Source of the DNA: Symbiodinium sp. CCMP2592
Taxonomy: Eukaryota; Sar; Dinophyceae; Suessiales; Symbiodiniaceae
Length of the DNA stretch: 64,000 bases
Direction: 5' to 3'
Assembly (NCBI GenBank): GCA_905221615.1
Contig: CAJNDT010006010.1
Location: 22,501 to 86,500 of the forward strand
The translations under genes were made by a program, and so were the position numbers. Below, one piece after another: positions 20,200-51,762 of this stretch (the first letter of the stretch is position 1; every line of letters begins with the position of its first letter). The notes under the pieces are model-generated. The model ran no database searches. It was not told the origin of the DNA and saw nothing but the letters and a program-made list of their open reading frames with translations.

Positions 20200-20222
20200 C
20201 CAAGAAAGGTCAGTCGACGTCA
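20200..20222 (+). repeat. Left terminal inverted repeat of the giant transposon
   Basis: Reads CCAAGAAAGG, then TCAGTCGACGTCA. It differs from the complement of the right end at positions 11, 13 and 20. A subterminal TATAGAGCGCATTTT follows about 48 bp from the tip. Confidence 0.88.
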
Positions 20223-20296
20223 AGGGGCGCACTTAAGGGGCGCCCTTATAGAGCGCATTTTGGCTAAAAGGCGGAACCAATATATATCAATTTCGT

Positions 20297-20425
20297 TTGT
20301 TTCCGTTTCGACAGATGTTTTTTGGCGATCGACTCGTATATTTCCAGACTGCATGCAGGTAGTTCTGTTGTCAACTTCGTTTTTTTCCGTTTCGACAGAT
20401 GTTTTTTGGCGATCGTCTCGGATTT
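20297..20425. repeat. Subterminal direct repeat near the left end
   Basis: A segment with CCGTTTCGACAGATG followed by TTTTTTGGCGATCG occurs twice (about 20306-20335 and 20388-20417). Repeats of this kind near a tip are candidate transposase-binding sites. Confidence 0.75.
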
Positions 20426-20576
20426 CGACGGACTGGCATGCATGCACGTCAGTTTTTCTGCTGCTCGTGAGATGCACAGACGCGACGTACCGTAGAATTT
20501 CGGCTCGAATATAATCGTTTAAACAGCACGCATGAAGCAGCAGCCCGAAACCTGAAACGGTTTTTTTTTTACAGTG

Positions 20577-20658
20577 GCACTCATGACGGCATTCATGTCT
20601 TTTCGCAATGCACTCATGACGGCATTCATGTCTTTTCGCAATGCACTCATGACGGCTC
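20577..20658. repeat. 33-bp tandem repeat, 2.5 copies
   Basis: The unit begins GCACTCATGACGGC, contains ATTCATGTCTTTTCGC, and starts at 20577, 20610 and 20643. It follows a T-rich run. Confidence 0.9.
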
Positions 20659-20797
20659 TGGCCTCAGATGCGTTTTGTTATAATGCATGCATGGACCCGC
20701 TGCAGTTTCACCATGGTTTTGAATCTGTTAATGTCCACGACTGCTATATATAGCCATTTGGCGCCAGGTGCAGCTAGGACCAAAGCCTATAGTTAAA

Positions 20798-21010
20798 ATG
20801 GATGGGACGGATCGGAGCCGCTCGCCCGCAGGATCGTGGGAATGGCGGTGGGCGTGGAAGAAGACAGGCGATGTTTGGTGGTGGAAGTGGTTCAAGGCTA
20901 GCAAAGAATGGCTAGAAGAGAAGGCCAAGACGAAGCAGAATGAAGACCAGCCTGCTGCTACATCCCCGGCATCATCGCCCCGAAAGCGCAAGAGATCCCG
21001 GACTCCATGA
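20798..21010 (+). CDS. Tryptophan-rich 70-aa ORF in the transposon
   Basis: Begins MDGTDRSRSPAGSWEW, has a cluster of tryptophans (WEWRWAWKK and WWWKWFK) in residues 14-35, and ends with a basic SSPRKRKRSRTP tail that looks like a nuclear localisation signal. It is the first plausible gene inside the left end. Family unknown. It could be a complete small protein or a first exon. Confidence 0.4.
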   Translation: MDGTDRSRSPAGSWEWRWAWKKTGDVWWWKWFKASKEWLEEKAKTKQNEDQPAATSPASSPRKRKRSRTP

Positions 21011-21449
21011 GCTAGATGGCTGTCATGAGCCAGGAGCATGCACATTAATTCGATTGCAATGCATTTTGCGGCTGGTGACGTACTGGCTGCCGGTTAAGAG
21101 GCCACCGGCTCCTGATCTTCAACTTAAGATCTCGAGGGCCGCCCTGGATCTATCGGATCATTTGTGCTCGCTCAAAAATGCCTGCGAGTCCAAGTATTCT
21201 AGGCATTTTCACGACCCTGACCGATTTAATTCCAACATGCTGGTCCCAGGTGAGCGATGAAAAGAAGCTACACGAGACGCGAGGATACGGAAGGTGCTCC
21301 CCGCCCCCAGCACGCATGCATGCATGCAGGGTTTGGGATTTGAGGGATCGAGCTGCATGCATGTCGCACGCATGCATCCTGTGTGTTTTTTCGCAGAGTT
21401 TTTTGGCTCGTGCATACATTAGATAATATACTATATACGCATCCATGCA

Positions 21450-21483
<34 letters not shown>

Positions 21484-21496
21484 TGATCCATCGAAG

Positions 21497-22162
21497 ATGG
21501 CTGCCCGGCGAGTTTTTTTAAAGTCTCAGCGACAAGAGCGGAGTGAGTTTGTGTGCGGGAAACTGAAGATGCTCTTTGACGATGAGCACATAGAGCTTGT
21601 GGGCAAAACAGGAGAAATGTTCCCACGCGGCTCTTTTCAGAAGCCTCAGCTTCGTGCGGCTTTTCGTTTCACAGCAGAATGCAGTGGACGATTTTTCACG
21701 ACCCGCCTTTGTAAACTCGTTGTTCGGAAGCTGCTGAATTTGCTGCAGATCGTTCCGATTCTGGCACCTGGGCAATCTTTCGCCAACTGGACCGATTGTC
21801 AGTCGAAACGACTGAAGTACATGGTTGCGAGGGCCAAGAGGAGCATAGCAGTGGACTTTGAATCGCCGCAGCCCGATGCAGCTCGTTTGCCTTCTGCAGC
21901 CATGGATTGCCTTGAGACGCAAGTGTACGATCCGACTCCTGCTGCTTCGTTGCAAAAAATGTATTATATATATATATGTAGTATGTCCATGCAGACACAC
22001 AGTTTTTCACGCATCCATGTTCAGGAACGGACGAGCGACATGTGTCCCGAGGACGCTATTGCTTTCAAAGGAGCTGTGCCGAGTATGATCTTAAATTGCA
22101 GAGGACGAAGAATGGACCCCATTGCAGTGGCGACAGTCATTGATGGACTGCTTCATTTATAA
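21497..22162 (+). CDS. 221-aa ORF of unknown function in the transposon
   Basis: The start ATG (MAARRVFLKSQRQERSEF) follows a TATA-rich run. Residues 1-150 look protein-like, with basic and hydrophobic alternation (for example FFTTRLCKLVVRKLLNLLQ). A TATATA-rich segment at about 21960-22020 translates to low-complexity YYIYIC and is probably an in-frame intron, after which PEDAIAFKGAVPSMILNCRG continues to the stop. I do not recognise a domain. Confidence 0.5.
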   Translation: MAARRVFLKSQRQERSEFVCGKLKMLFDDEHIELVGKTGEMFPRGSFQKPQLRAAFRFTAECSGRFFTTRLCKLVVRKLLNLLQIVPILAPGQSFANWTDCQSKRLKYMVARAKRSIAVDFESPQPDAARLPSAAMDCLETQVYDPTPAASLQKMYYIYICSMSMQTHSFSRIHVQERTSDMCPEDAIAFKGAVPSMILNCRGRRMDPIAVATVIDGLLHL

Positions 22163-22229
22163 ACCGATCGGATCCAAGCATGCATGCACGCATGGTTTAT
22201 AACTATACTTTGCACGCATGCATATTATA

Positions 22230-23370
22230 GGACCATTTGGGATGGACAGCAGAAGAAGCCGAAGAGTGGTTGGAGGCCTTCGAAGACAAAGGGGGCAGAT
22301 TAATTTTTATAAGACATGCATGTGAGCGATGCTCAGGAGTGGCAGCCCCGTGGTTGGGATGCTGACGAAGTAGACACCTTGTTGAAGGTCTTCTGGCCGC
22401 AATGTAGGATGTTTGAGCATTAATAAGCATGAGGGCTATCTATTGAATATATGTGATGCTGAGGAGATGGACGATGAAACCGAGGATTGTGGGCAGTTCG
22501 TATTCTGGTAAGAATGCACATAGAAGCATGCCAGTGGTGGAGGAATTATTGCGACCAAAAAAGAAGGCCTGCCGAAAATTGGGTCGCTTCATGTTTTCTG
22601 TATAGGGCCTGTAGTATCGTCCTGGGCCAGGATCAAAAGTTGGCCAGCAGTCTGTCACAGCCCGAGGTCCAAAAAACTGTGTTTCTTAAGATTCTTTTGG
22701 GATCTTCCAAGGTACGAGGATGTGCCGAAGCCATCTTTGGAAACGAAGCCACGTGTCACCCCCATGGCTCAGAAGCAGCTCAAGTTGGCCAAGAAGCTGG
22801 AGGTTAGAGAACAGTGTACACGCATGGCACGCATGTCATTGGCAGCATTTAAAATGCATTCATGTATCACGCATGCACTCATGCATGCATATACAGGGAC
22901 ATTCATGTATCACGCACTCCTGCATGCATCCCACGCAAGCTAGCCATTCATTCCTGCAGGCCGAGAAAAATCGTGAGTGCTCAAAGAACAAGAAGACTCC
23001 CGCTGCTAAGAGCTCTGCAGCGAAGAAGCCCAAGCCGCCCTCGAAGGCTAAGCCGAGCAAGGCCCCGAGCAAGAAAGGCAAGGTTGAAAAGCCGACGAAG
23101 GGCCAAGAGAAGGCAAAAAGGGGTCAGAGTCACTACGGCCGAGCCTACGATGAGTATAAAGCCCGCTTTAGGCCCGGTGCTTGGAAGGTTTACAGTATAG
23201 ATATTATATATTCACTCGTCCCTTCTAAGGCACGAGTTCGCCTGCGACCCGATGGGCAAGGTCTTCAGGGACGAGTTGTCCAAGAGTTGGCTGCAAAGCC
23301 AGGAAAGGTACGATGTGGTTTCGAAGATGAGTGCCAGCGAGAGATCCAAGAGACGGCTGACTTTGTAAGT
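22230..23370 (+). CDS. Multi-exon lysine/proline-rich gene in the transposon
   Basis: Exon-like pieces on the plus strand: about 22235-22300 (GWTAEEAEEWLEAFEDKGG), about 22330-22405 (EWQPRGWDADEVDTLLKVFW), about 22450-22505 (DAEEMDDETEDCGQFVFW), about 22710-22805 (MAQKQLKLAKKLE) and about 22960-23195 (SSAAKKPKPPSKAKPSKAP then RAYDEYKARFRPGAWK). The first two pieces repeat a pattern of W followed by an acidic helix and LxxF. Between them lie GCATGC-rich, TATA-rich segments read as introns. The basic KPKPPSKAK region resembles disordered nuclear or DNA-binding tails. Function unknown, exon borders approximate. Confidence 0.45.
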
Positions 23371-24497
23371 TTGCTACATGGTAGCTGTTTCCTCAGTTGC
23401 AAAGCACGGGAACAATTCGTTGCAATTCGGTGCATGGGTTTGTGTTGCCTTTAAAACAGCACGCCCATAATTCGATCGTACTTCGTCTGCCCGCATGCAA
23501 CAGGAGAGCAGAAAACATTCTAGTCTTAAGAATCAGACGCATGTCTCCACACATGCACATGCATGGATCGACATGCATGATGGTTTTTACCTTTTTCGCA
23601 GCCTTTGGTCCCGAATGCTGCTTTGGACGAGCTCGCAGCAGGATCGAACTGTGGAGGCAGCACCCTGAGAGATCGAGGTTTTTTTTTGCATGCATGCACG
23701 CATGGGTTACCAGAATATGGTTATATATACTAGCATGCATCGAGGTACTTTGTAGGTTGGAAGTCAGGCACTCATGGGCTCACGCATGCATGCACGCATG
23801 GGTTAGGGTACGTAGCATGCATCGAGGTTTACACCTTGTTCGTTGGAAGTCAGGCACTCATGGGCTCATGCACACATGCACGCATGGGTTAAAGTAGCAT
23901 TTTGTTGTAATTACCCTGGTGAGGTCGCTTTAACGAGAACCTTGTCGCCGACGATTTGTCGTTGCCTTGGCATCCTGATTCTTCGCAGATCGAGGTCTGT
24001 GCACGCATGCAAGTTTGACTCCTGAGTCAACTGCTGCTTTGGCTCTCCAGGTCATGTGCATTGAACCATGCAGTTGCAGGCATATCGTGGGATGTATACC
24101 ATAGACCATAATTTGGCAGGGTTTGAGGCTTTATAGGGCTTTTTTTTGCGGGTCCGGTGCCATGGAGCCGCCGAAGGCAGGACACCAAAGCAAAGTTTGG
24201 GGAAAGCGGGTCATGCATGCATCTGGACCAGGCCGATGAAGAAGCCTCCGCGGGGAAGGCACGGGCACGCACAGGGAGAAAGCTTTTAAACTATCGTGCA
24301 TGCATCGAGAGGAGGACCCCGCCTCGCCATCGGCAAACGTCGCAGCCTTAGCAGGCATTCATATTTGCTGATACATATATAGTGCTCCCCAAACTATATA
24401 TTTGTTGACCTGAAGACATTAAGGACACTTTGGGTTTCACCGTGGTTTCTTCTCCACCTCCGGTCCTGACCTCCAGCTGTATATGCACACTAGAATC

Positions 24498-24660
24498 CTG
24501 ACAGCACTGAAACTAAGGAGCAGCCTGCAAAGAATGATCCGGTCGTCGAGGCCAGTTTGCGACCCTCTGCCCCCCGCCTGACAGCACTGAAATTAAGGAG
24601 GAGCCTGCAAAGGATGATCCGGTCGTCGAGGCCAGTTTGCGACCCTCTGCCCCCCGCCTG
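24498..24660. repeat. 80-bp tandem duplication (two copies)
   Basis: Two nearly identical 80-bp units begin CTGACAGCACTGAAA at 24498 and 24578. They differ at a few positions (ACTAAGGAGCAG versus ATTAAGGAGGAG, AAGAATG versus AAGGATG). Confidence 0.92.
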
Positions 24661-24796
24661 CCCACATGCATGATCACTCATGTTGCACACATATATAAGC
24701 AACGGCATGCATGTGCCCACATGCATGATCACTCATGTTGCACACATACATGACGGCATGCATGTGCCCACATGCATGATCACTCATGTTGCACAC
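24661..24796. repeat. Tandem ACATGCATGATCACTC repeats (three copies)
   Basis: Three copies of a unit containing CACATGCATGATCACTC then ATGTTGCACACA, with variable TATA-containing spacers. This is part of the GCATGC-rich texture of the transposon. Confidence 0.85.
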
Positions 24797-24848
24797 ACTA
24801 AACCCTAAGCCCTAAACTCTAAACCCTAAGCCCTATAATACGCCCTCA
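24797..24848. repeat. Telomere-like CCCTAAA block
   Basis: Degenerate CCCTAAAC/CCCTAAG repeats. Similar short blocks occur near 26215-26290 (as GGGTTTA), 30535-30560 and 36545-36590, mostly inside the transposon. Confidence 0.75.
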
Positions 24849-24879
24849 AGCCTTATATAAGCAATAACTGCATGCATGT

Positions 24880-26664
24880 ATGGATGATGATGATGATTTT
24901 AAACAGCTTGCATGGCAGGATCAACAGGCGGTGATGCGACGACACATTGAGTATTTGGAGACCTTGAAAGTCACAGCATCCAGCCGAAGAAGAGCTTTTA
25001 TAGCAGAGGCCTATTCGCTTCCTGAGTAATTACCTAAATATAGCAAGAAAATTAGAAATAAAACTGGTCAGTTCTAGCAGGCCGCAAAGAAAGCAGAAGA
25101 GACCGAAGAGGTGGAAGAGATAGATCCGGAGCAGGCCGCCACCAGCATTGCAACGGCAGCCATATAATCTTGCATGGACTCTGAGGTTGTCTACTTCCCA
25201 GAGCCAAAGAAGATGCCCAAGGCCAAGGCTGCAGGGCCGAAGCCTCCTGCAAAACCTGCTGCTGCTCCGCCGAAGAAGAGACGAAGCAGAGAGGAGGTCC
25301 GACCGAGAAATTTGTGTGCCACACACGCACACAGATCTTGCCAGGCCGAAAACATACTCTTCAGGATGAAATGTAAGGCCAAGGGACCCCAGGCGGAGGC
25401 AAGCACGCATGCATGATCAGGATCATGTGCACTCATGTTTCATGTCACGCATGTGCATACAAGATCAAGTCACGCATGCATGCATGGCATGTCACGCATG
25501 TGTAAGTCACGCATGCATGCATGCCATGTCACGCATGTGCATACAAGTGCACGCATGCATGCATGCCAGCTCATCGACATGATGGCCCACGACCGTGCCA
25601 ACATTCCGGTTCCGTGCTGAGCTGTTGTATATATATTAAACCCTAAAGCCGGCCTATATAACCGAGGTGCCCGCTTCACCGCCGCCGCTGGCACCAGCGA
25701 TGTGTAAATCACCTTCAGCAGAGGCCATGCATGCATGTTGTCGCACACATGAGAACATTCATCGCTCGAATGATTAGGTTCCCAAAGCCGCCGAGTCTCA
25801 GGCTTCGTGAATTATAAACGCAGACTGCAAGCACGGTAGTTCTCGTATGTTGCAGGGCACAAAGAACCCGGCGGCCGAGTCCACAGATCAGGAGGCCTAT
25901 ATAGAGATCGTAAAATATTATGATAAGCACGCCAGTTTTCAGTTTTCGTGTTGTTGCAGGCCAAGAAGCAGAAAGTTGCCGGCGAGACAAAAAAGGAGGC
26001 CAACTACAGACCAACACGGAGTTCAAGCACGCATGTTCATTGCTGCAGGAGAAAGCCGCCGAGGTTCATGAGGCCAGATTAAAAGAGAGAGAGAGAGAGA
26101 CGGATATAAGCATGCCAGTTCTCGTCTTGTACAGGAGCAGAAGATTAAGGAGAAAGGCAAAGGTGCCGAGTCGTCCCACGGTGATGAGGCCTCGAGGGTC
26201 TACGGTTAAAATTTATAGGGTTTAGGGTTTATAGGGGGCCCCGAGGGTCTAGGGTTTGTAGGGTTTAAGGTTTAGATCGAGTTTAGAGGGTGTATAGGGT
26301 ATAATTTATAAGGGGGTTGAAAGTTGAAGCACGCCAATTGTGCAGGACAAGGAAAGCCCCGCTGCTGGGTCGCCCCGCGATCATGAGGACCGATAGCGAG
26401 AGAGATCGAGAGGGCGAGAGAGAGAGAGGGAGAAGTTCAAGCACGCCATAATTGCATGTGCAGGATAAGGAAGGCCCCGCTGCTGGGTCGTCCCGCGATC
26501 ATGAGGACCGATATAGCGAGAGAGATCGAGAGGGAGATCGAGTCGAGAGAGAGAGAGAGAGAGAGAGCACACCGTCGATCGGGCAGGTGAAGAAATCTGC
26601 TGAAAAGCAGGACGCGGCCGGGGCCTCCGATCGCTCGAAGATACATGTCCCCTGCACGACATGA
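24880..26664 (+). CDS. Multi-exon repetitive gene with KE-rich exons
   Basis: The first piece, 24880-25029, is a clean ORF beginning MDDDDDFKQLAWQDQQAVMR. Further plus-strand pieces follow: about 25081-25165 (AAKKAEETEEVEEIDPEQAA), 25174-25310 (VVYFPEPKKMPKAKAAGPKP), about 25955-26000 (AKKQKVAGETKKEA), about 26050-26090 (EKAAEVHEARLK), and two near-duplicate pieces at about 26345-26390 and 26463-26510 (PAAGSPRDHED and PAAGSSRDHED). The final frame ends after GQVKKSAEKQDAAGASDRSK at about 26664. Pieces are separated by GCATGC or GA-repeat tracts. This may be one or several genes. No domain recognised. Confidence 0.4.
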
Positions 26665-26727
26665 TTCGATCGTTAGGAGAAGATCGATCCAGGGCCGCCG
26701 AAGGACAGGGCAAAGAGCGAGAGACAC

Positions 26728-26781
<54 letters not shown>

Positions 26782-26935
26782 ACATACACGCATGCACGCA
26801 TGGGAGGGACATCGTGCACGCACGGGGGGAAAGGACACGCATGCACGCATGGAGGGTACCGAGCGAGAGACAGAGAGGGAGAGATGGGAGAGAGAGAGAG
26901 AAAAAAAAAAGATCGAGAGAGAGAGTGAGAGAACA
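26530..26935. repeat. (GA)n-rich tracts
   Basis: Several GAGAGA runs (about 26545-26567, 26728-26777, 26865-26935) interleaved with ACGCATGCATG motifs. The ERERER and SLSLSL frames are repeat translations. Confidence 0.85.
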
Positions 26936-26992
26936 CACGCATGCATGCATGCATGCATCATGCATGGGAGGGTCGAGTGCACGCATGCATGC

Positions 26993-27277
26993 ATGGAGCC
27001 GCCGATTCAGGAGCCGCTCACAGCTGAAGACGTTCAGGCCCTCTCATCGGCGGCCCAGCAGCTGTTCGAATTGCTGAATTCGACGGGGCCAAAGACGGAT
27101 CCGACACCGAAGCCGGATCCGATCCCAAAGCAGCCGCTGAACCCGAAGCGGCCACCTGCACCCTTGGCCAAAGTGCAGACGGGGAAGGGGGTGAGATGGG
27201 TGGTGGCCCCTCCCAAATGGGAGGGGCCACCCGTGAAGACGCGGTGGCCTAACCCACCGCCACCGCCGCAGCGGTGA
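26993..27277 (+). CDS. Proline-rich 94-aa ORF in the transposon
   Basis: Starts MEPPIQEPLTAEDVQALSSA, has a short helical stretch (AAQQLFELLNSTG) and then a basic proline-rich tail ending NPPPPPQR. The start region, with its upstream GGGAGGGTCGAGTGC and ACGCATGCATG, recurs at 34360-34430. There a related but divergent frame begins MEPPIEEPLSPPPPPP. Duplicated starts suggest a reused module. Function unknown. Confidence 0.45.
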   Translation: MEPPIQEPLTAEDVQALSSAAQQLFELLNSTGPKTDPTPKPDPIPKQPLNPKRPPAPLAKVQTGKGVRWVVAPPKWEGPPVKTRWPNPPPPPQR

Positions 27278-28069
27278 TCCGGGTTTCTGTGAAAATCGGG
27301 CGATTGCAAGCATGATGCAAGCATGCATGCCACTGCCACGTAACATGCTTGATCCTGTGCATCTAAGGTCGAAGCCTCGAATCTCCTCGCCATGGCGGAG
27401 ACCTTACACGCATAGTGCATGCATGGATCCAGCACGCATGCATATACCACTCATGAAAGCATTCCTGGCACTCATGGTCAAACATGCATGCATGCATGTA
27501 GCACTCATAAAAGCATTCCTGGCACTCATGGTCAAGCATGCATGCATCATACTACTATCTAGCTATATATCGAATATATCTATATTCTGGCATCCACCGT
27601 GTGCCGCGAGCTGCCCCTGAAATTCCGCGAAATCGCAAGTTGCTGCCTTATATATATAAGGGCTTTGGTGAAATTGCTGCTTGGCCACCAACCGCCCAAC
27701 CCAAGTCGAGCCCCCAAACCCCCAACCCACCCCGAACCCACAACCGCCCCCCCTGTCCCCCCCACATCCCCGCGAAATTGCTGCTTACCGCGAACCCTCC
27801 AACCCAACTCCCCGATTCAACCCAAATCCCCAAAACTTTACACTGCACCCAACCTAAACCAAAAACCAGTCCTCCCCCCTCAACGGCCAACCCCCTTGAA
27901 CCCTAAGAATCTATAGGTCTTTTACGAGAACTGCCGGTGCGACGGCGGCCAAGGCCGGCTCGGAACCCCAGCTCGAAACCTGAAACCCTGCAGTGTGGAT
28001 TAAATCCTTAGAAGTGCATGCTTGCTGCTTTTCGAGTTTTGGCGGCTCGAGTTATAAGCATTCGCGGCC

Positions 28070-28348
28070 ATGGAGGGCTTTATGAGACAGAACGACTTCC
28101 AAATCACGGCAGAGCTTGAAGAGCTGTCATGGGAGGAGAAGAATCGTCTTCTACGACTTCTCTGCAACATGCTTCATCCTTCGGTGCCATTACTCCCTCC
28201 TGGAGGTCGGGTACATCGGCCTGCTTGCAGACGAGAGTGCCCAACGTGCGGTGAGGTTTGTGGTCGTCGCTACGAGCATGTGTCTCACGAATGCTGCAAA
28301 TGCCAGGGATATAGAGTTCATGTGCAGCAGCGGCAATCCCACGAGTAG
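28070..28348 (+). CDS. Cysteine-rich 92-aa ORF, possible zinc-binding protein
   Basis: Starts MEGFMRQNDFQITAELEELS. Residues about 58-82 carry CPTCGEVC and HECCKC, a spacing compatible with a zinc-binding knuckle or ribbon. The preceding helix (WEEKNRLLRLLCNML) is amphipathic. The ATG follows a CCATGG context. A frame on the same strand shifted by one overlaps its 3' half, so the true exon end is uncertain. Family not recognised. Confidence 0.45.
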   Translation: MEGFMRQNDFQITAELEELSWEEKNRLLRLLCNMLHPSVPLLPPGGRVHRPACRRECPTCGEVCGRRYEHVSHECCKCQGYRVHVQQRQSHE

Positions 28349-28577
28349 TAGAACCGGCACAGCTGCATTCGAGACGGCTGATGAGTGAAAACAATTGCAT
28401 ATAAATGAGAAGCTTGAACACCCATGCTTGCTGCAGCCATCGCTCGGTGTCCAGTTTGCCAGGCCCCTGGTCGGTCGGTTTGCTAGGCCCCCAGGCTGCA
28501 CGAATGCAGTGTGCCTGCATGCATGCCTATCATGCATGATCCTCTGCATGCATGGAAGCATTCATGGCACTCGATGA

Positions 28578-28898
28578 TTGGAGGCCCTTTCGGCTCGCAG
28601 CGGACCATATGCAGATATGGGGAAGCAAGTTCGGAAACAGCCCAAAGACGTCCGACTACTGGGAGTCCATGGCAGAAGTGGCCCGAGGGCCACGTACACG
28701 CTCCTACTGGGACCAGTTTCGGACATGCTCCGAGCGGAAACAATCAAGATGAAAGACATCCGTGGACTTCTTTGTGGCCCGGAGTCAGGGCTCGTTTTCG
28801 ACACGGCTGCTGCTGCTGCCTCGTCTTCCAGGAGTTCTGGTTCTCCAGTGAAAGCATTACAAGACCTGCCACCTGGGTGTGCTGAAGCAGGAGCCTGA
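28578..28898 (+). CDS. Possible 106-aa ORF
   Basis: Open frame with GKQVRKQPKDVRLLGVHG, then GPVSDMLRAETIKMKDIRG, and a low-complexity alanine/serine stretch near residue 80. An overlapping frame at 28552-28752 is also open, so coding status is doubtful. No domain recognised. Confidence 0.25.
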   Translation: MEALSARSGPYADMGKQVRKQPKDVRLLGVHGRSGPRATYTLLLGPVSDMLRAETIKMKDIRGLLCGPESGLVFDTAAAAASSSRSSGSPVKALQDLPPGCAEAGA

Positions 28899-29159: not shown

Positions 29160-29630
29160 TAGATCGCCCAAAACCCATATACGTGAAATTGCAGCTCGGC
29201 CTTATCTAGGCCGCGAATTTCCGTGAAATTGCAGCCCGGCTTATAGAAGCTAGCACTTGTAAGGGCCGCGAAATTCCGTGAAATTACAACTCGGCCCGTT
29301 GCAGCTCCGCACGTACAGGGCCGCGAAATTCCGCGAAATTCCGTGAAATTGCAGCTCGGCTACAGGCCGCGAATTTCCGTGAAATTGCAGCTCGGCCCGT
29401 GAAATTCCGTGAAATTGCAGCTCGGCTTATATGCTCGCACTTATACGGGCCGCGAAATTCCGTGAAATTACAACTCGGCCTATATATTGCAGCTCCGCAC
29501 GTACAGGGCCGCGAAATTCCGCGAAATTCCGTGAAATTGCAGCTCGGCTACATAGGCCGTGAAATTCCGTGAAATTGCAGCTCGGCTTATACTTATAAGG
29601 GCCGCGAAATTCCGTGAAATTACAAATCGG

Positions 29631-29673
<43 letters not shown>

Positions 29674-29765
29674 CAGCTCCGCACGTACAGGGCCGCGAAA
29701 TTCCGTGAAATTGCAGCTCGGCTATATTATAAGGGCCGCGAAATTCCGTGAAATTGCACATCGGC
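29160..29765. repeat. Tandem repeat of GAAATTCCGTGAAATTGCAG units
   Basis: About ten diverged units built from GGGCCGCGAAATTCCG, TGAAATTGCAGCTCGGC and short variable spacers (TATA runs, CTCGCACTTATA). The unit length varies between about 35 and 70 bp. No coding function seen. The NFTEFRG frames on the minus strand are repeat translations. Confidence 0.9.
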
Positions 29766-29774
29766 AGCCTTTTG

Positions 29775-29945
29775 GGCGTGAAATTGCGTGAAATTCATGT
29801 GGCCGGCAAGTGCAACCCTGAAAATCACTGGGTTTTTCGAGATCGTCCAAAACCAGTGGGCGTGAAATTGCGTGAAATTGCGTGAAATTCACTACATAGA
29901 GCGCTCTATACGACCGACTGGGCGTGAAATTGCGTGAAGTTCAAA
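29775..29945. repeat. GCGTGAAATT repeats plus an internal copy of the terminal motif
   Basis: Repeats of GGGCGTGAAATTGCGTG continue the preceding array. Two motifs found beside the right tip, ATCGTCCAAAACC (29845) and CTCTATACGACCG (29907), recur here in the same order as at about 39865-39900. An AGAGCGCTCT palindrome (29899-29908) joins them. This looks like an internal or relic transposon end, or an extra transposase-binding cluster. Confidence 0.7.
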
Positions 29946-30241
29946 AACATACATTTTCGTGATTTTTTTCCAAAAAAACCTCAAAAGTCCTGGGTGTGAT
30001 CTTGCCACGTTCATGTTTGCTCTGAGGCCGGGCCGACCTCATGCAAGAATGTCCATGACAGACACAGAAGACCCTGCTCTGAAGCAGAAAATGAAGGAGT
30101 GCACCACTTATGCTGCAATCCTGTCGGACTAGAAGCATTCACCTGCCACAATCCGATGCAGCTTGCAGGCTCCAGTCGCGACTACATGCATGATCGTGCA
30201 TGCAAAAAATACCTGGAAAGGTCATCTCATGCATGTATATA

Positions 30242-30277
<36 letters not shown>

Positions 30278-30303
30278 TATCTAGATCGCACAGCCTAGCA
30301 AGC

Positions 30304-32490
30304 ATGAAGGGCAAAAGCCCTTCGGCGATGGCAGCCTTGCTTCAAGCAGCTAAGGGCAAGGGCAAAGGCCGAATTATTTGTATATTAATAATGTACTATA
30401 TCTATTCAACCTATGCTGGGGGCCCTGCCTGCAGGCGCCGACAAGAACCAGCAGAATATGCTGGCTTTGGCACCCGGCCTGCACGTACATGCAAGACTGC
30501 ATGCATGCATTATGTCTATACATATATATTACCCTTAAACCCCAAACCCTAGACCCTTATAAACCCTACACACTAAAGACTGCATGCATGCATGCATGCA
30601 TTATCTATCTATATATATATATAGATATATTACCCTTAAAACCCAAACCCTAGACCCTTATAAACCCTACACACTAAAGACTGCATGCATGCATGCATGC
30701 ATTATGCATATATATATATATATATATATATATTACCCTTAAACCCCAAACCCTATAGACCCTTATAAACCCTACACCCTAAAGACTGCATGCATGCATG
30801 CATGCATTATGCATATATATATATATATATATATATAATAAACCCCAACCCAAGACCCTTATGGGTAATATACATACATATATATATATATACAATGCAT
30901 GCATACATGCATGCATGACTGCATTCACAAAGCACACTCATGCTGGTACATGCATGTGCATTCACAACGCACACTCACATGCTGTATACATGCATGCACA
31001 TGCATGCTCATGCACACCGATCATGCATGTAGCCACAGTGCATGCATGTCCAGCACGGCCGAACCAAGGAAGGTGACAACACCAGAAGAGCCTTGTTCCC
31101 TGCCCCCGACGACTTTGAGAACCCTAGGCGACGAAAGACCGGGAAACAGCAGCTGTGCTTGGAGGACCAAGTCGAGCAGCCCCGTAAGAAACGAGCGAAG
31201 ACCAACGCAGAAGAGGAGGAAACCAGCTCGCCTAAGGAAGCCAAAGTGACGAGTGAGAAGAAGAAGAAGCTTAGGAAGCCAGCCCTCGAAGAGGAAGCCG
31301 CCCCCAAGTGTAAGAAACCCAAGGGCACGAAGGCAGCAAAGGAAGAGGACGAAGAAGAGGAGGAACAGGAGGAGGAAGAGGAACGCCCGCCTAACAAAGC
31401 AAAGGGACAGGCTAAGAGCAAGCCCAGGAAGGGAGCCACCGAAGAGGAACAAGTGGAAGACGAAGTCCCCGCCAAGTCTACGAAAGCCAAGGGCACGAAG
31501 GCACCAAAGGCAGAGGACGAAGAAGAGGAGGAACAGGAGGAGGAAGAGGAAGCCCCGCCTAAGAAAGCAAAGGACAAGAGCAAACCCAGGAAGGGAGCCC
31601 CGGAAGAGGAGCAAAAGGAAAAGGACGAGGAAGCCCCCGCCAAGTCCAAGAAACCCAAGAAGGCAGAAAAGAAAGAGGAAGAGGAGGAACAGGAGGAGGA
31701 AAGCCTGCCTAAGAAAACAAAGGGAAAGCCCAGGAAGGGAGCCCCCTCAGAGGAGCAAGACAACGCACCGGAGGAAGAGGAGGAGGGAAAGGAAGCCCTG
31801 CTTAAGAAAGGAAAGGGGAAGGGAAAGAGCAAGACGAAGGCAACAGCTCCACAAGAAAAGCAAGGAAAGGGGAAGGGAAAGAGCAAGAAGGTGACAGACC
31901 CGGAAGAGGAGCAAGAGGAAGAGGAGGAGGAAGTCCCGCCTAAGAAAGAAAAGGGGAAGGGAAAGGGAAGGGGAAAGAACAAGAAGCCAGCCCCCGCACA
32001 GGACGAAGAGCCAGAGGAGGAAAAGGGCGAGGAAGCCCCGCCAAAGAAAGGAAAGGGAAGGGGAAGAGGAAGGGGAAGGGGGAGGAACAACAAGCCACCC
32101 CCCGCACAGGAGGAAGACGAAAACGAGGAAGAGGAGGAGGAAGACCCGCCTACGTCCAAGAAAGCCAAGAGCAAGAAGACAAGAAAGCAAGAGGAAGAGG
32201 AGGAACCGGAGGAGGAAGAGGAAAGCCCACCCAGGAAGGCAAAGGGAAAGCCGAAGAGCAAAGAGGCAGGCAGGAAAGAGGAAGAGGAAGAGGAAGAGGA
32301 GGAAGTGGACAACCCGCCTCAGAAGACAAAGCCGAAGAGCAAGGCCACGAAGGCAGTTCCCCAAGAGGAGGAGGAAGAGGAACCCGAGAAGGGCAAGAGG
32401 TCCACAGGTGACGAGTACAAGACGCCGCCGTCGAAAGTCAGGAAGCTCGGAAGTGGTCTGGACAGCAGCAGGCAGTTTGAACCTAAGTAG
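30304..32490 (+). CDS. KEKE-type repetitive nuclear-like protein (cargo gene)
   Basis: The probable first exon, 30304-30369, starts MKGKSPSAMAALLQAAKGKG. A small exon at about 30433-30486 reads ADKNQQNMLALAPGLH. A large exon from about 31050 to the stop at 32488-32490 carries some 470 residues. The large exon starts GRTKEGDNTRRALFPAPDDF, then holds about eight repeats of roughly 40-50 residues alternating glutamate runs (EEEEQEEEEE) with basic PPKKAKGKxKPRKGAP blocks, and ends SRQFEPK. Such charge-patterned sequence is typical of disordered chromatin- or RNA-associated proteins (inference). It is the longest uninterrupted frame in the transposon. Introns contain GCATGC and CCCTAAA repeats. 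Confidence 0.65.
30520..30870. repeat. Tandem about 100-bp repeats of CCCTAAA, GCATGC and TATA blocks
   Basis: Four diverged copies of ATTACCCTTAAACCCC, ACCCTAGACCCTTATAAACC, CACTAAAGACTGCATGCATG and a TATATA run. They lie in the intron between the second and third exons of the KEKE gene. Confidence 0.85.
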
Positions 32491-32940
32491 CCTCTATAGA
32501 TCGTGTGAACTCATATTCGCCAGGCCGACACGGCAGACGAGCACAACGTCGCTTGCAAGTACCCAGAGTAAAGACAGTGTTGCTTGGCTCTTCATGCATG
32601 CTTTAGGTTTCACACATGATTTCAAGAAATTGAATAAACATGCATGCTTTAGGACTCACACATGGTTTCAATAATATGAATAGACATGCATGCATATATA
32701 GGATTAAGTCAGGCCACAAGCTCCACCGGCCTCTCCACGGTGGGTCCCGACGGCAAGCTGCGACGTGCGGCCTGTCACGCATGGTATACCGTTTAGTTAT
32801 AATGCAACCCACGCTCCCGTAATCATGCCCATATTCCTATTATGCAACCAGGCTCCCCTAAAATCATGCATGCAGTAGAGCTACTCCCTTTAGTCCCTCA
32901 TCACGCATATATTCCCCCAATCATGCATGCTCATGCATAG
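32491..32940. other. Spacer between the KEKE gene and the next gene
   Basis: Contains two diverged copies of an ATGCATGCTTTAGG plus CACACATG unit (about 32592-32690) and GCATGC motifs. No exon seen. A first exon of the downstream gene may lie here, since that gene's recognisable part begins with GTG after an AG acceptor. Confidence 0.4.
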
Positions 32941-33926
32941 GTGAAGGACATCACGCCGGAGACGCGACTCCTCCTGGAGTCGATGTCTGATGGGTCGAGT
33001 ATACCGGCCCAAGAGCGGCGGATGCTGTACCGGGCTCTGGACAGGAAGATGGAAGAGCGAGAAACTCCTGCTGCCCTGGTGGAAAAGTTCAAAGCCTGTC
33101 GTGGCAACCACCGCAAGAGGTTCGAGCTGCTAAAGTCGTTCATCCTTGACCCGTCTATGCCGCATGTCTGCATGCTTAAACCATAAATCCCCTCACACAT
33201 GTGCTGCTATAAGTCGTTCATCAAGCATGGACCCCTCGATGCATGCATGTCTGCATGCATCGATATATAGCTAAACCAACTCCCCTCCCTATACCTTCGT
33301 TAAGGAGCTCCGTGCACATCGAAGTCGCCTACGAGGAAGCGGCAAAGAACAAGAATTTCAACAAGTCGGCGGAGCTCCCCCTGTACGAGCTCGAGCGGCT
33401 CTACAGCGGCACCGAAAGTGGGCGGCAGTTCTTGGAAGACTTGAAGACCCAGAAGGGAAAGCCTCACCCGGACCCCCGCCACCGGAAAAACCCTCTCTAC
33501 GCCCTGTACAAAGTCTACTTAGGAACCGAAACCAAGAGCCACGGCCTTATATACATGCTCATGCACTCATGCTCATGCACTCATGCACATGCATATAATG
33601 TTCTTTAACGCATGCATGCACGACGCTTAGGCGGATCGGAGAGGAAGTCCAGCCAGACACTCAGGGCAAGGGCGGAACTGGACCCCAACAACGAGGAAAG
33701 CACGGCTGCCGCCGTCGCCTACGGAAAAGGCCTTCTCTCTGGCTCGAGCAGCTCTAAGAAGAAGAAGGCTAAGAAGAGCAGCGACTGCAGCTCCGATGAT
33801 CCGGAGCCCAGCAAAAAAGAGAAGGCTGCAGGTGCGGAAGGCGAAGAGCCGTCTTCGGACGAGAAGCTCTTGAAGAAAGAGGTGGCCAGGCTGCTTGACT
33901 GTGATATGACGGAAAAAAAGCCTTAA
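32941..33926 (+). CDS. Three-exon accessory protein with FKACRGNHRKRF motif
   Basis: Exon 32941 to about 33165 (ITPETRLLLESMSDGSS, ALVEKFKACRGNHRKRFELL), exon about 33308-33535 (VAYEEAAKNKNFNKSAELPL, GRPHP-like KGKPHPDPRHRKNPLYALYK) and exon about 33632-33926 (AELDPNNEESTAAAVAYGKG, KKKKAKKSS, ending DCDMTEKKP). From memory, proteins with this FKACRG block and a following KxHP block are common uncharacterised proteins in dinoflagellate genomes. This is unverified. Its place directly upstream of the transposase suggests a second mobility protein, comparable in position to TNPA of CACTA elements (inference). No start codon found, so a 5' exon is missing from the model. Confidence 0.55.
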
Positions 33927-34048
33927 AATCCACGGCCCAAACCCCTTAAAGCATTATATCCCTAATTGCATTGAAGCTTTTTTGGGGGCAAACCAATCTG
34001 TGTTGTACCAATCCAAAATCCATTTAGCTTCTTATATAATAATATAGT

Positions 34049-34360
34049 ATAATGGCCCCAAAAACCCTATTCTAATTATTAAGGCCCATATATTAACTTT
34101 TGTCAACCCCTTACGGCTAATTCATCTTCCCACCCTATACGCACGCATGTATAATGGGCCCGAAAACCTTATAATTGTTAAGGCCCTTACATTGACCTGT
34201 AAACCCCTCACGGCTAGAAAAATCCTTTTTCCTATACCGAAACCCTACGCACGCATTTATTAAGGCCCCTATATATATTAACAGTTTTAAACCCCTAAGG
34301 GCTATTCCATCAACCCTTTATGTATATAAGCCTACAAATCCGAAACCCTACGCATGCATG
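34049..34360. repeat. About 105-bp tandem repeat, three diverged copies
   Basis: Each copy carries TTAAGGCCC, then CCCCTTACGGCTA (or CCCCTCACGGCTA, CCCCTAAGGGCTA), then CCTA with ACGCACGCAT. No coding signal. Confidence 0.75.
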
Positions 34361-34741
34361 CATGCATGGGAGGGTCGAGTGCACGCATGCATGCATGGAA
34401 CCGCCGATTGAGGAGCCGCTGTCGCCTCCCCCACCGCCCCCTAAACCAATCCTAAACCCTATGCATGCATGCTATAATCCCACTCATGATTCCAATCCGA
34501 AACCCTACGCATGCATGCTAGGGCACTCATGATTCCACGCATGCATGAACATGCATATAAAGGTTGAACAGGCTGCAGAAGAAAGCACGAGAGACTTCCG
34601 CTGGCCTTGCCGGAGTGCCGAACTTCGAGGTCCGCGGCTTTGTTGCATATCATGTTGGGCCTGCAATGCAGTCAATGCAATGCATTCCTGCACATGCTTG
34701 ACCTATAGAAGTTTTGCTCGAGCATACTATATCCCACCGCC

Positions 34742-35050
34742 ATGGCATCCACCAAGAAGATTGAAGACAATGACAAAGAGGAGGTGGATGACCTTGCAAA
34801 GCAGCTGCTCAAGCTCCAAGTGGGTGGGACGCCGGAACGGAGTGAGGCTGAGCAGTTAAAAGAGCTAGGCAATCTCCTGAACCGCCCGGTGCGAGAGCTG
34901 GCCGGCTGGTGGTCACTGTGCAAACAGACGGGCTACTGTTTGCACTGCTCGAGGTGTTACATTATTGAGTTCCTTTCTTTAAAGGAAATCGCCAAATTTG
35001 ATTCCTTGTGGCATGATGATTTTGAATGCCGCTGCGAGATGGATAATTAG
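34742..35050 (+). CDS. 102-aa cysteine-containing protein upstream of the transposase
   Basis: Clean ORF beginning MASTKKIEDNDKEEVDDLAK, with an acidic helix followed by LLKLQVGGTPERSEAEQLKE. The C-terminal part carries CLHCSRC and CRC, a possible zinc-binding arrangement, and ends ECRCEMDN. The ATG has a CCATGG context. It may be a separate small protein or the 5' end of the transposase gene through an unrecognised splice. Family not recognised. Confidence 0.5.
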   Translation: MASTKKIEDNDKEEVDDLAKQLLKLQVGGTPERSEAEQLKELGNLLNRPVRELAGWWSLCKQTGYCLHCSRCYIIEFLSLKEIAKFDSLWHDDFECRCEMDN

Positions 35051-35188
35051 CTGCACATACATGCACGGGATCCAATTATAAGCTGTGCAGGGAAAAAAGT
35101 TGCTGTGAGCGGGTGCAGTGTGAGTGTGAGCAGTGCGGATGCCTGCGAGGGGCGACTCCTGGTGTCTTATAAAGCTCGATCTTTGCAG

Positions 35189-38100
35189 GAGCAGCATGAG
35201 TTCATCAAAAAGTGGTTCAACTGGCTATCTGATTTCACGCGAAGGCCACGGCATGCATCATTTGTGCGGCCTACTTGAGTCCATATGGAACACAGGTTGG
35301 AAACAGATGAAAGCAATGGCAAGACCGCACGCTTCTTGCTGGACAAGGTCGAAAAGAACGCGAGCAAGTTTCAGGCACTTCCTAAATTAGGAAAGATCGG
35401 CACCTGATTCTTGACATGAATGAGGTTATGGACGATGCTATCAACAATGCAGCTGCTGTCGTCAGGAGTCACAAGAACCGTCACGTGCTGGAATGTTTTT
35501 TGCTTGAGTGTCTGGGTTTCCCAATCCGGTTTGACATGCATGTGCCTTGAGGGTCTATATAGTTTCTAGGAGCATGCATGTATATATCTACCAAAAATAT
35601 ATTTGCTGAGGGTTCGATCGGATTAAGGTGAGAAGAAGAAGCAAGAAGCTGCCTCCGCCTAGGGTACCACGCCAGAGTACTGAAGGGTGCAATAGCTGCA
35701 TGCATTTTGAAAATAAACCGAAGTAAAGTAAGTCGCCTCGGCATGCACATGCACTCTAGGATCTGGCCCGGGTTTTCACAAAGCATTGCTCGTGGCTCAT
35801 GAAACTGAGTTCCCGGCGAATGCATTTCGTTCCGTATAGTTCTGCACCGACAGCCTGTGTTAGGCTACGCGATCACAGGCTCCGAGTGGCACACGATTGA
35901 AAAAGCTCCGAGAACTGCCAGTGCCTTCATGCATGCATTTTGAGGTTGAGGGTTTAGGTTATATATGGTTCAGGGTTTAGGGGTCAAGGTGTAGGGATTA
36001 TAAGTTTGTGACATGAAGATGATCATGTAAGTAGTTTCTCCCGTTGCAGACGAAAGCCTCGGATAAGTGGTCATTGTGCCAAAATGCTATCGTGCCTGCA
36101 AGTTTCAAGCCAGGTCGCCAGCATGCATGAAGTATTATGCTATTGCTATACCCACGCAGGTCACGCCTTGGCATCTACGCGGCACGGCACCGCGATCTCC
36201 AAGCTCGTGACAGACTTCCTGGACATGCTCATGAAGGGCGAGGTATCGAAAATCATGCATGCTTTCTAAAGCTAAACCCCTCAACCCTCGATCATGCATG
36301 TTGAAAAGAACCCAGATCCCTCGATCATGCATGCCTTAAACTCTTAAACCCTCAACTTGCAACCCTCATGCATGAAGCATACATGTTAAACTCTTAAACC
36401 CTCAACTTTCAACCCTCATGCATGAAGCATACATACACGCATGCATGCTTCGAAACCAATCAACCGAAACTATATATATGAAATTCCCTCGACCCGCATG
36501 CATGCCTCGCCTGCATCATCGCAGTCGGAGCGCCGAAAGCCTGAACCCTAAAACCCAAACCCTATAACCCTAGAACCTTAAACCCTATATATATTATATA
36601 TCCTGAACCATAACATGCATGATCGAGGCAAGCATGACGCGGCTGGCTAAGAGCCTTCAGACCCTGAGCGAACTGCCTCGGTTCTTGGTGCCCCGGCGGG
36701 TGCTGCAGCTGGCTGATGCTTTCCACAATTCCCATGGATGGGGTCTGGAGCGGACCTTCAACCGCTGGTGCCTTAAGCTGCCTGCACGGGCATGCCTTCC
36801 GGAACCATACGAGTGCATGGATGCAGATCAACATTTTTATTATGTTCATGATACATGTGCTGATGCTTTCATGCATGGATCGAAGCATTCATTTCGCATC
36901 TGCAGGTTCCAGGTGCCGAGGGTCCGGGTGACATAGATGCATTGGCAATCTTGTGTTTTAAATTATAATCCTGCACGCATTGAATTTGCACGCATGCTTG
37001 AAAATTAGCATGCACGAACTGCAGGTGGGGAATGAGGAAGCAAAGCACAATGTCACCATCGGTGTGCTTCTTCCTCACGAAGTCTTCGCTCGCATGCACG
37101 ACTTCGGAGGGCATCTGTTCAGCGACTTCTTGACCGGAACTCCAGAGGTTGGATCTTGAAACTTAAACACGCATGCAATTGGCCAGCCTCGTAGCATATT
37201 ACATGCTACAGGATCTCGAGAAATTCTGGCAGCAGAATGCCGACCTTTCGGACGAAATTGCTGGAGCATGGGGCCCGCAGGCAAAGTTGTGGCCGCAGAT
37301 TATATGTCTTAAACTCGTATACCTGATAATTCAAAAAGGTCTCCTTCCGTAAGATCATGCCCTGGCGACTCTACGGCGACGGTGCCGAAGCCTGGAGCTG
37401 GAAGCCAAGAGCACTACACCGTCCTGCAAATATATACTTAGATATATATCTAATACAAATTTATGTGTGTGTGTATATATACCTCAGGCAATGGCAGCTT
37501 CGAGCTCATGAGTCTTGTCTCCGTCTGCACCAACAAGACGAGTACATTGGACACTCGCATTCCGTGCCATGGATTATATGCTTTGAAATCAATATGTGCA
37601 TATGCATATACTGCTGCTTGCAAGGATATGTATCCGCAATGCCATTAGCACAAGCGAGGCCGATCGTTAATTGCATGATCCATGGATCCATCCACAACGC
37701 TCTGTGCCAGGAGGTGCGAGACCAGATCCTGGAGATCATTGCATGGTCTTTCCGCTGCCTGGGTGGCACGCACGCATGCTAGTACACGCATCATATATCC
37801 CGCATGCCGTGCACGAAATGGCATGTCATGCATGCATGTATACAGGTCGTGGCCGCTGGCCTCGACGAGACCCTTTCGGTCAAGAGTGGCCAAAAGGATA
37901 TCGGAGAGACAAAGTTGGCCAGCCTTTGGCCGGAGAGTGGCGAGCTGTGATGGCTGGGCTTCAAGGCGACCAAGACTGGTTTCATAAGATATTTCGATTC
38001 CAACGAGACTGGCCACGCAAGAGACATGTGTGTTTTTTTTTTACCATTATATACATATATACATATATACTGACATATACCTCGCCCTTGTTTTTGTTGC

Positions 38101-39613
38101 TCAGGATCTTGGCACAGCACAAGGAAGGAGTGTTGCCAGTACTGTGCGGCAACGCAGATCATGGAGCCCGGTGGGAGCCACGACATGCTGTACACTGAGT
38201 TTGGTCGAAATGCCCGCCATCGTCGCACGCATCTCGCAGCATTATAATATATATGTGTATACACACGCACGATTGCCAAGTAGCACATGTTGATTGTCCA
38301 GGATCCTGCAGACACGGGCAGATTGGGAAGCTGTCCACTGTGCAACATGCATCACGCAATTGGTAGGATTTTCACCCAAGCGAGTCTTGCTTTGCAATTA
38401 TTGTATGACTATAAATTCGAGCCTGTGAGTTTTTAGGTATGTTTCAGCCATGGATCCTTGACATACTTCGATCTTGCAGGAGTTTACCCAGATATTCTGC
38501 ACATTCTGGACTTGCAAATATCTGTGGATTGTATTACTTCGGCCTTGCTGGACTTTTCCGACGCTGGCAAAGCACCAGGTCGTTCGCGAGATGCTAGACT
38601 GCGGGCAATTGGCTATGAGTACGCAGACTGGTGTCGGCAGGAAGGCACTCAAGCACGCATTTATTATGATTATAATATATATATATATAGCTGGTAGCAT
38701 GCATGTGTTCGCTAGATGGATATTCAGCCTGAGGAGTGCAGGATCGTGCCAATCCCAAGCTGTTCCTGTCAAAGACCTTGGGAGAAAGCAAGGATTATCC
38801 TCACGTTTCGCAGAAATATCTCAAGGCAGCTGCTTCTCGATACATGGTTTACTTTATGTACGACTTCTCGAGAAAAAAGGAGGATGAGGTTCGTGCCAGC
38901 CTTTTCGGAGCATTGAGCACCATGCTGACAGTGTTTGCTGAACACCCGTGTCCGGGCTAATCGTCTTTTTTTAATCATGCATGTGTTTGAAAGTTATAAA
39001 CGGTCAAGGGTCCAAGGATGCATGCACGTTAAGACGTTCAGGCGCTACTGGGACCACGATGCCGAGGATTGCGATGGCCACCCAGAGATCGTCCTTGAGC
39101 GGGCATATATGCAGTACAGATCCGTGTACGATGCCCTGGCCCGCGAAGCAATCGAGCAAGGGGTGTACAGGTATAACCTGCGACCCAAAATGCACCAACT
39201 GGAACACGTGCAGCCTAGGTTCGAGAACATCAGATTTTTTGTTGTTTGACTTGCACGCATATATGCACCGGTGGCATGCAAGATCTTCATGCATGCATGC
39301 ATGTCCGAATCCAAGGATCTTGGATTGGGTTCCTGAGGCCGGGAATCCCCGGTACTACAGTTGTTTCCTCGACGAGGATCTCATCGGCAAGGTCAAGCAA
39401 TTCGCCTTCACATGCATGCACATGCATACATGCAATTCGCACACAAGATTTCACGCATGATTTCACGCATATTCGCACACAAGATTTCACGCATGATTTC
39501 ACGATCTGAGGCGGATCGTCGAGCACTCGCATCCTCGCACCATGAGCTTGCGGGCCTTGCAGCATTACTGCCTGCTAGCCGCCCTCCGTTGGGTCGGAAC
39601 CGACATGTCGTGA
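35189..39613 (+). CDS. Intron-rich DDE-type transposase
   Basis: About eighteen short plus-strand exons separated by GCATGC/TATA-rich introns. Best pieces: about 35189-35270 (EQHEFIKKWFNWLSDFTRR), 35296-35380 (TARFLLDKVEKNASKFQAL), 36155-36245 (TAISKLVTDFLDMLMKGE), 37023-37148 (GVLLPHEVFARMHDFGGHLF), 37211-37280 (DLEKFWQQNADLSDEIAGAW), 37340-37405 (MPWRLYGDGAEAWSW), 37489-37570 (SLVSVCTNKTSTLDTR), 37680-37765 (VRDQILEIIAWSFRCL), 37845-38025 (GQPLAGEWRAVMAGLQGDQD), about 38104-38235 (CCQYCAATQ), 38473-38650 (GVYPDILHILDLQISVD), about 38735-38945, about 39035-39235 (RYNLRPKMHQLEHVQPRF), about 39325-39405 (CFLDEDLIGKVKQF) and 39512-39613 (HPRTMSLRALQHYCLLAALR, stop). Proposed catalytic residues: Asp in LYGDGA, Asp in PDILHILDL, Glu in LDEDLIGK. 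The architecture recalls EnSpm/CACTA-like transposases and a large dinoflagellate family known to me only from memory. Confidence 0.72.
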
Positions 39614-39919
39614 CTGCTGCGAGGAAAAGTCTGCAGCCGACGTACTGCTCTGTGAGTGTCGCATGCATATTTGCACGCATGTTCGCGGTTGGTCGCATAT
39701 CGGGCGGAATTTTTGCATCTCGCGAGTCGCTTTATCTGAAATTTCTAAGCCTGCTTGTCTTCAAATCCAGTTTTTCGTGTTTACTGTCAAAACAAATCCA
39801 ACCGACTTTATCTTTATTCGGTTTTCGTCACGTATTTCAACCAACTCGAAAAATCTGTTTATATATCGTCCAAAACCGAAAAATGCTCTATACGGTCGTT
39901 TGACGCAAAGAGCGCTTTA

Positions 39920-39942
39920 TGATGTCGACCGGCCTTTCTTGG
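39920..39942 (-). repeat. Right terminal inverted repeat of the giant transposon
   Basis: Complement reads CCAAGAAAGG, then CCGGTCGACATCA. CTCTATAC lies about 50 bp inside, mirroring TATAGAG near the left tip. Confidence 0.88.

Positions 39943-51586: not shown

Positions 51587-51618
<32 letters not shown>

Positions 51619-51708: not shown

Positions 51709-51762
<54 letters not shown>

Follow-up and report, generated by a model that had tools for sequence, protein, structure and literature searches.

The insert and its copia-like host

The window, that is, the whole stretch of 64,000 nucleotides of Symbiodinium sp. CCMP2592 analysed here, carries a copia-like retrotransposon that reads on the minus strand and whose frame is interrupted by a 19,743-bp insert, the element under study. 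The insert, which has the features of a DNA transposon, spans positions 20200-39942 and is flanked by the dinucleotide AG at 20198-20199 and 39943-39944. The features that delimit it and its host, including the terminal inverted repeats (TIRs) and the presumed long terminal repeats (LTRs) of the retrotransposon, are the following.

19318..19583, minus strand: presumed 3' LTR of the copia-like host, 96.6% identical to 47096-47353
20198..20199, no strand: left copy of the 2-bp target-site duplication (AG), from the letters and the flank counts
20200..20222, plus strand: left TIR, CCAAGAAAGGTCAGTCGACGTCA, repeated genome-wide
20200..39942, plus strand: whole transposon, 19,743 bp, oriented by its transposase gene
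39920..39942, minus strand: right TIR, from the comparison of the tips
39943..39944, no strand: right copy of the 2-bp target-site duplication (AG), from the letters
47096..47353, minus strand: presumed 5' LTR of the copia-like host, 96.6% identical to 19318-19583

The left tip, CCAAGAAAGG, begins at 20200 and the right tip, CCTTTCTTGG, finishes at 39942, and the two agree as inverted repeats at 20 of 23 positions. A scan of the window for inverted pairs of 23-mers more than 1 kb apart, with an exact seed of 10 bases and 20 or more of the 23 positions matching, returned 31 pairs, two of which are not of low complexity; one of these two, the pair that bounds the insert, has equal 2-bp flanks. 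Moreover, when 300 bp of each flank are joined and one AG is removed, a 200-codon open frame runs through the join, at which ...GGSTGGL is followed by LTFLGGPG.... An earlier note on this DNA had claimed a nested element defined to the base and a copia-like frame restored by taking out the insert together with one AG, and both claims are confirmed. The host element matches RVT_2 (expectation value, E, 1.9e-4), rve (E 3.9e-6) and zf-CCHC (E 9e-4) in Pfam, all three under the curated cut-offs, and its part to the left of the insert (18000-20199, three frames) has no Pfam family match. Full-size copies of the insert, described below, are up to 99.95% identical and thus more alike than the host LTRs, as would be expected if the insert is the younger of the two.

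Copies and target-site duplications across the genome

The 22-bp tip pattern CCAAGAAAGGYCRGTCGACRTC, with up to two mismatches allowed, has 58 matches in the assembly of 1.098 Gb (43 exact, 12 with one mismatch and three with two), against two for its reversed control. The bare decamer is not diagnostic, with 5,581 matches versus 2,435 for its control, and the view of CCAAGAAAGG as the mark of thousands of small relatives was rejected, a true tip being present at one of the first eight loci fetched. Paired by hand, the 58 tips resolve into 19 inward-facing pairs, 17 unpaired tips and the three tips with two mismatches. Seven of the pairs span 19.2-20.5 kb, four are larger (23.1, 28.8, 32.1 and 39.1 kb; copies C4445, C57, C902 and C2291) and eight measure 2,159-2,194 bp. 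A right-tip variant is common to C3402 and C4445. The two tips at C3580:47327-49784, one left and one right, are separated by 2.4 kb and point the same way, an arrangement found in nested or rearranged copies, and this locus was not counted as a ninth short element.

The 2-bp flanks are equal in 18 of the 19 pairs (P 1.2e-12), a count that sets aside the 17 unpaired tips and the three with two mismatches, and in none of the 19 are the flanks equal over 3 bp. The duplicated letters in the 18 pairs are TA (six), AA (five), TT (three), and AG, GA, AC and TC (one each). As controls, left and right 2-mers drawn from different pairs agree in 64 of 342 comparisons, and left 2-mers taken one to four bases further out agree in 0-3 of 19. 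The duplication lies flush against the CCAAG tip in 18 of 19 pairs, so the tips read CCAAG..CTTGG, a finding on which it bears that the pairs were found with a pattern beginning CC. The further genomic copies with the same tips and 2-bp duplications, for which the earlier note had suggested a search, are thereby found.

The sole pair without a 2-bp duplication is C1524. Its left flank equals that of C2502 over 500 of 500 bases and the right flanks differ; therefore, one of the two copies is probably mis-joined inside the transposon. C2502 also carries a 100-N gap within the element, and its two ends are thus linked through scaffolding only. Moreover, of the 17 unpaired tips nine point towards a contig end that lies within one element length, and in three cases two tips on different contigs have the same 15 flank letters, as is expected where an assembler breaks at a repeat. 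In C5381, the same 12 left-flank letters recur beside a second, incomplete copy that breaks off at a gap of 100 N; this copy resembles a scaffolding duplicate and was excluded from the identity comparison.

Over gap-free columns, identity among the window copy, C1079, C5234 and C5381b amounts to 99.90-99.95%, and the 500-bp flanks of these copies have no mutual BLAST match at E 1e-5. C1524 and C2502 are 99.65-99.76% identical to these four, and C3402 is 98.1-98.3% identical to the other six full-size copies.

The eight short elements (about 2.16 kb) have the same ends as the full-size copies and are 99.6-99.9% identical to one another. Both ends of the C502 short element align with the window copy (main stretches 85-92%), as does one internal stretch at window positions 29331-30158, and the C4979 short element keeps parts of the last two transposase exons described below, with four amino-acid differences in 45 residues. 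Because of these end and internal alignments and of the retained exon parts, the short elements appear to derive from a larger, diverged parent by internal deletion. The internal segment that they keep overlaps one further feature.

29182..29951, no strand: array of GGCCGCGAAATTCCGTGAAATTGCAGCTCGGC-type repeats; of the interior, the 2.16-kb derivatives keep a single large segment, 29331-30158

Within the kept 29182-30158 stretch, the GGCCGCGAAATTCCGTGAAATTGCAGCTCGGC array may serve as a cis-acting site or simply mark where a deletion ended. Telomere-like AAACCCT repeat fragments also occur in non-coding parts of the element, at 30537-30859 and 36336-36589.

A putative many-exon transposase gene near the right end

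A codon-bias scan combined with reading by eye brought out a series of short open stretches on the plus strand near the right end of the insert, with 64-258 bp between cores. The putative exons are listed below.

36640..36822, plus strand: transposase exon core 1, open stretch, copy comparison
37025..37147, plus strand: core 2, aligned with P0002
37212..37280, plus strand: core 3, open stretch, copy comparison
37351..37407, plus strand: core 4, candidate first catalytic Asp at 37378-37380 (LYGDGAE)
37487..37591, plus strand: core 5, with 146 gap columns (an insertion) in C1079
37681..37767, plus strand: core 6, start uncertain, with a 1-bp copy difference just before it
37845..38024, plus strand: core 7, candidate second catalytic Asp at 37968-37970 (LQGDQDW)
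38107..38220, plus strand: core 8, C(2)C at 38134 and 38143 (CCQYC)
38479..38640, plus strand: core 9, reading YPDILH..
38742..38948, plus strand: core 10, open stretch, copy comparison
39058..39240, plus strand: core 11, H(3)H at 39193 and 39205 (KMHQLEH)
39335..39406, plus strand: core 12, candidate catalytic Glu at 39374-39376 (FLDEDLIG)
39527..39613, plus strand: last transposase exon, ending in TGA (..HYCLLAALRWVGTDMS*), retained in the 2.16-kb derivative read

The 1-bp difference between copies lies near 37669. In C1079, otherwise near-identical, about 150 bp of the transposase region, matching window positions 37551-37702, look tandem-duplicated.

The composite of the 13 cores (36640-39610) has one match among 8,000 scored candidates, the 417-residue protein P0001 (E 6.8e-7), and a search with P0001 finds P0002 (615 residues, 57% identical) and P0003; P0001 and P0002 are uncharacterised metagenomic proteins. 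In the three-sequence comparison the composite matches P0002 at E 4.7e-22, with the same order along the protein, and a search with the profile A2 returned P0002 alone out of 8,000 candidates scored. Viral contigs scanned with the transposase alignment A1 yielded 22 pattern matches, none of which was confirmed as a relative.

Aligned with P0002, by alignment and not by structure, the motifs of the element follow the order GD (37378), GD (37968), C(2)C (38134, 38143), H(3)H (39193, 39205) and E (39374), and the corresponding residues of P0002 are D194, D294, C313, C316, H547, H551 and E572. The putative transposase thus carries a candidate signature D, D, C(2)C, H(3)H, E of the CACTA/Transib/RAG1 type. 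In both P0001 and P0002 the second Asp is 19 residues from the first zinc Cys and the last His 21 residues from the Glu; the residues of mouse RAG1 given in a passage of PMC4914335 (D600, D708, C727, C730, H937, H942 and E962) put these distances, by residue number, at 19 and 20.

Comparison of the copies extends the reading from protein motifs to coding constraint. None of the 20 exon cores, which include upstream candidates, has a stop codon in any of six other copies (gapped codons skipped). Between the window copy and C3402, 39 codons are changed in the 4,551 bp of the 20 cores (0.86 per 100 bp), and elsewhere there are 320 changes at 14,778 positions (2.17%). Within the 13 transposase exons, the codons with a single change comprise 13 silent and five amino-acid-altering ones, giving a ratio of altering to silent rates (dN/dS) of 0.11 (P 1e-5). 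Altering codons in these 13 exons number one in C1524 and two in C2502. The upstream candidates may belong to a further gene or to the N-terminus of the transposase, as noted for the first of them.

21497..21958, plus strand: candidate exon of 154 codons, part of either an upstream gene or the N-terminus of the transposase, with no stop in six other copies
22960..23187, plus strand: candidate Lys-rich exon of 76 codons, open stretch, copy comparison
31051..32421, plus strand: repetitive Lys/Glu-rich open frame of 457 codons, with 0, 12 or 24 gap columns against other copies and no stop in six of them
32941..34906, plus strand: four candidate exons (32941-33150, 33312-33536, 33672-33920 and 34745-34906), with no sign of amino-acid constraint

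The candidate exon at 21497-21958 has four to five amino-acid changes and zero to one silent change in C1524, C3402 and C2502, with no sign of constraint, and no NCBIfam match.

Outside the element, a long array of the 8-bp unit GGCTGGAA occupies positions 222-1009, with minus-strand open frames of about 300 codons that probably do not represent a gene, and a 44/87-bp tandem array lies beside a long ACT trinucleotide array (50945-51277 and 51571-51842). An Rfam search of the window returned nothing at gathering scores, and the dinoflagellate spliced-leader core has no match in the window at up to two mismatches.

Nature and affinities of the element

The insert is likely a young, recently active and probably autonomous cut-and-paste DNA transposon with its own DDE transposase of the CACTA/Mirage/Chapaev/Transib (CMCT) type, encoded in at least 13 exons near the right end. 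The direct evidence consists of the tips, the dispersed 2-bp duplications, the near-identical copies at unrelated sites, the deletion derivatives, and a constrained multi-exon gene with conserved acidic and zinc-ligand positions. From these, we infer that the enzyme may be active, that the family would supply it itself, that the element would be excised, and that the 2.16-kb elements would have been moved in trans. In the proposed mechanism, the transposase encoded near the right end would bind the CCAAGAAAGG tips and the adjacent ends and cut beside them, and the element would then be joined to a target cut with a 2-bp stagger, giving rise to the 2-bp duplication.

Several results weigh against this reading. 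Specifically, six-frame Pfam scans of the whole insert (X at stops) gave a single match, DUF6628 at E 0.085, under the cut-off; searched at E up to 10, neither the assembled protein nor P0002 matches any Pfam model, and P0001 has two chance-level matches. Searches of PDB sequences gave three chance-level matches in one case and none in another, NCBIfam returned nothing for P0001, P0002 and two open frames, and the structure model of P0002 from the three-sequence alignment is uninformative (mean predicted local distance difference test score, pLDDT, 35). The exon ends are approximate and several frame joins unsettled, and because of the unsettled splice joins the Asp-Cys spacing is unmeasurable in the element itself; in addition, P0002 has a further Asp, D371, that does not vary among the four sequences aligned, which leaves room for a different catalytic assignment. 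As regards constraint, three codons with multiple changes, all altering, stand outside the dN/dS value, and with them the transposase exons count 13 silent versus eight altering codons; the seven upstream candidate cores compared with C3402 have five silent and 13 altering codons and show no sign of constraint. Over all 20 cores, silent and altering codons number 0 and 14 in C1524 and 1 and 11 in C2502, and the rates of change in the cores and elsewhere are equal (0.31% versus 0.32% in C1524, 0.26% versus 0.26% in C2502). The transposase gene of C1079 is probably broken by the insertion in core 5. Lastly, the tips are CC..GG and not CA..TG, which is usual, not universal, in the CMCT clade according to a passage of PMC12730594.

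With no sequence match to a CMCT protein, the assignment to this clade rests on motif order and spacing, alongside which stand the 2-bp duplications of 18 of 19 pairs. Tc1/mariner elements duplicate TA only, ISL2EU/PHIS duplications are 2 bp and Transib/RAG1 duplications 5 bp, and the hallmark of Polinton/Maverick elements is a set of DNA polymerase, integrase and capsid genes. In the present family, TA makes up six of the 18 duplications and AG, TT, GA, AA, AC and TC occur as well, unlike in a TA-only family; ISL2EU/PHIS elements resemble it in their short duplications, whereas no Pfam transposase domain of theirs was found in the element. TA duplications only are also given for ESTA/PHISTA in the passages of PMC12730594 drawn on here, which describe EnSpm/CACTA with CAC..GTG tips and 3-bp duplications, PlavakaA with TGT..ACA tips and 2-bp duplications, and PlavakaB with CATCA..TGATG tips and 2-3-bp duplications. 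EnSpm/CACTA elements are similar in their D-D-E triad with C(2)C and H(3-4)H, in their short TIRs and in the large size that they can attain, whereas the present element has CC..GG tips, 2-bp duplications, at least 13 short exons and no Pfam match, and thus departs from both their tips and their duplication length. The fungal PlavakaA and PlavakaB share CMCT motifs and, for PlavakaA, the 2-bp duplication, but neither has the same tips, and no Pfam model matches the element. Conversely, the likeness to Transib/RAG1 lies in the near-identical Asp-Cys (19) and His-Glu (21 versus 20) spacing of the relative P0002, while the PDB search detected no sequence similarity. The introners of Symbiodinium microadriaticum also combine TIRs with short duplications in a dinoflagellate, although these are of 4 bp, and the example in a passage of PMC9860276 spans 115 bp. 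Because the motifs and the 2-bp duplications agree with the CMCT clade and the tips with neither its usual CA..TG nor those of EnSpm or PlavakaA, the element is best read as a CMCT-type transposon of a separate lineage, neither EnSpm nor Plavaka. The earlier note was therefore right that the tips are not those of CACTA, but with the CACTA/Transib signature of its transposase the element is not a kind of its own; as for the passenger cargo that it had envisaged, none was recognised, the six-frame Pfam scans being at noise level and the readable part being the many-exon transposase.

It is unlikely that the element is instead a large non-autonomous one, with a transposase gene that is dead or a captured passenger and with another family moving it in trans. 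The C1079 copy, with its exon insertion and yet 99.95% identity to the window copy over gap-free columns, suits this explanation, as do the unconstrained upstream candidate exons and the 2.16-kb derivatives, which have lost the greater part of the gene and hence depend on a transposase supplied in trans; however, the 20 cores are free of stops across six copies, the transposase exons have fewer amino-acid changes than expected, and the transposase sits within the element and next to its end, where an autonomous element would carry it. That the element belongs to an EnSpm/CACTA or Plavaka family already in the catalogues, its tips having degenerated, is quite unlikely: such membership would account for the signature motifs and, in the case of PlavakaA, for the 2-bp duplications (passage of PMC12730594), and red-alga En/Spm families enlarged to 16-20 kb are mentioned in a passage of PMC6431247, but the duplication that lies flush against CCAAG in 18 of 19 pairs contrasts with CAC, TGT or CATCA tips, and the Pfam results for the assembled protein, P0001 and P0002 speak against a catalogued family.

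An integrated Polinton/Maverick or virus-like element is strongly disfavoured and very improbable, even if its size would suit one and a passage of PMC11071213 reports Maverick-annotated repeats from a dinoflagellate, since no polymerase, integrase, ATPase or capsid domain appears in six frames, the duplication is 2 bp, and none of the 22 pattern matches in viral contigs was confirmed. That the copies are assembly or segmental duplicates and not products of transposition draws on the shared left flank of C1524 and C2502, the 100-N gaps in C2502 and at the partial C5381 copy, the unpaired tips near contig ends and the shared flank letters; for the family as a whole it is refuted by the unrelated flanks of the full-size copies other than C1524/C2502 and by the 2-bp duplications in 18 of 19 pairs. 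Returning to the reading as an autonomous CMCT-type transposon, the chances are about even that the family represents a lineage at superfamily level, RAG1/Transib-like within CMCT, with CCAAG..CTTGG tips, 2-bp duplications, an intron-divided enzyme gene missed by profile annotation of raw sequence, present activity with 20-kb elements and deletion derivatives, and distant metagenome relatives.

No description of such a transposon family was found among the literature matches listed, a search that did not extend to Repbase and subscription journals. In passages of PMC11453091, about half or more of the predicted dinoflagellate genes are without functional annotation, and the mobile elements discussed for dinoflagellates are mainly retrotransposons and introners. 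If the present reading is true, a large cut-and-paste family invisible to Pfam, with copies 99.9% identical, would constitute a directly testable, recently live transposon. The family would also be a candidate tool for dinoflagellates, in which gene delivery is hard. Moreover, the RAG1-like spacing would, if true, add a distant branch to the history of the RAG1/Transib enzyme group, and repeat catalogues built on known domains may overlook families like the one with CCAAG..CTTGG tips.

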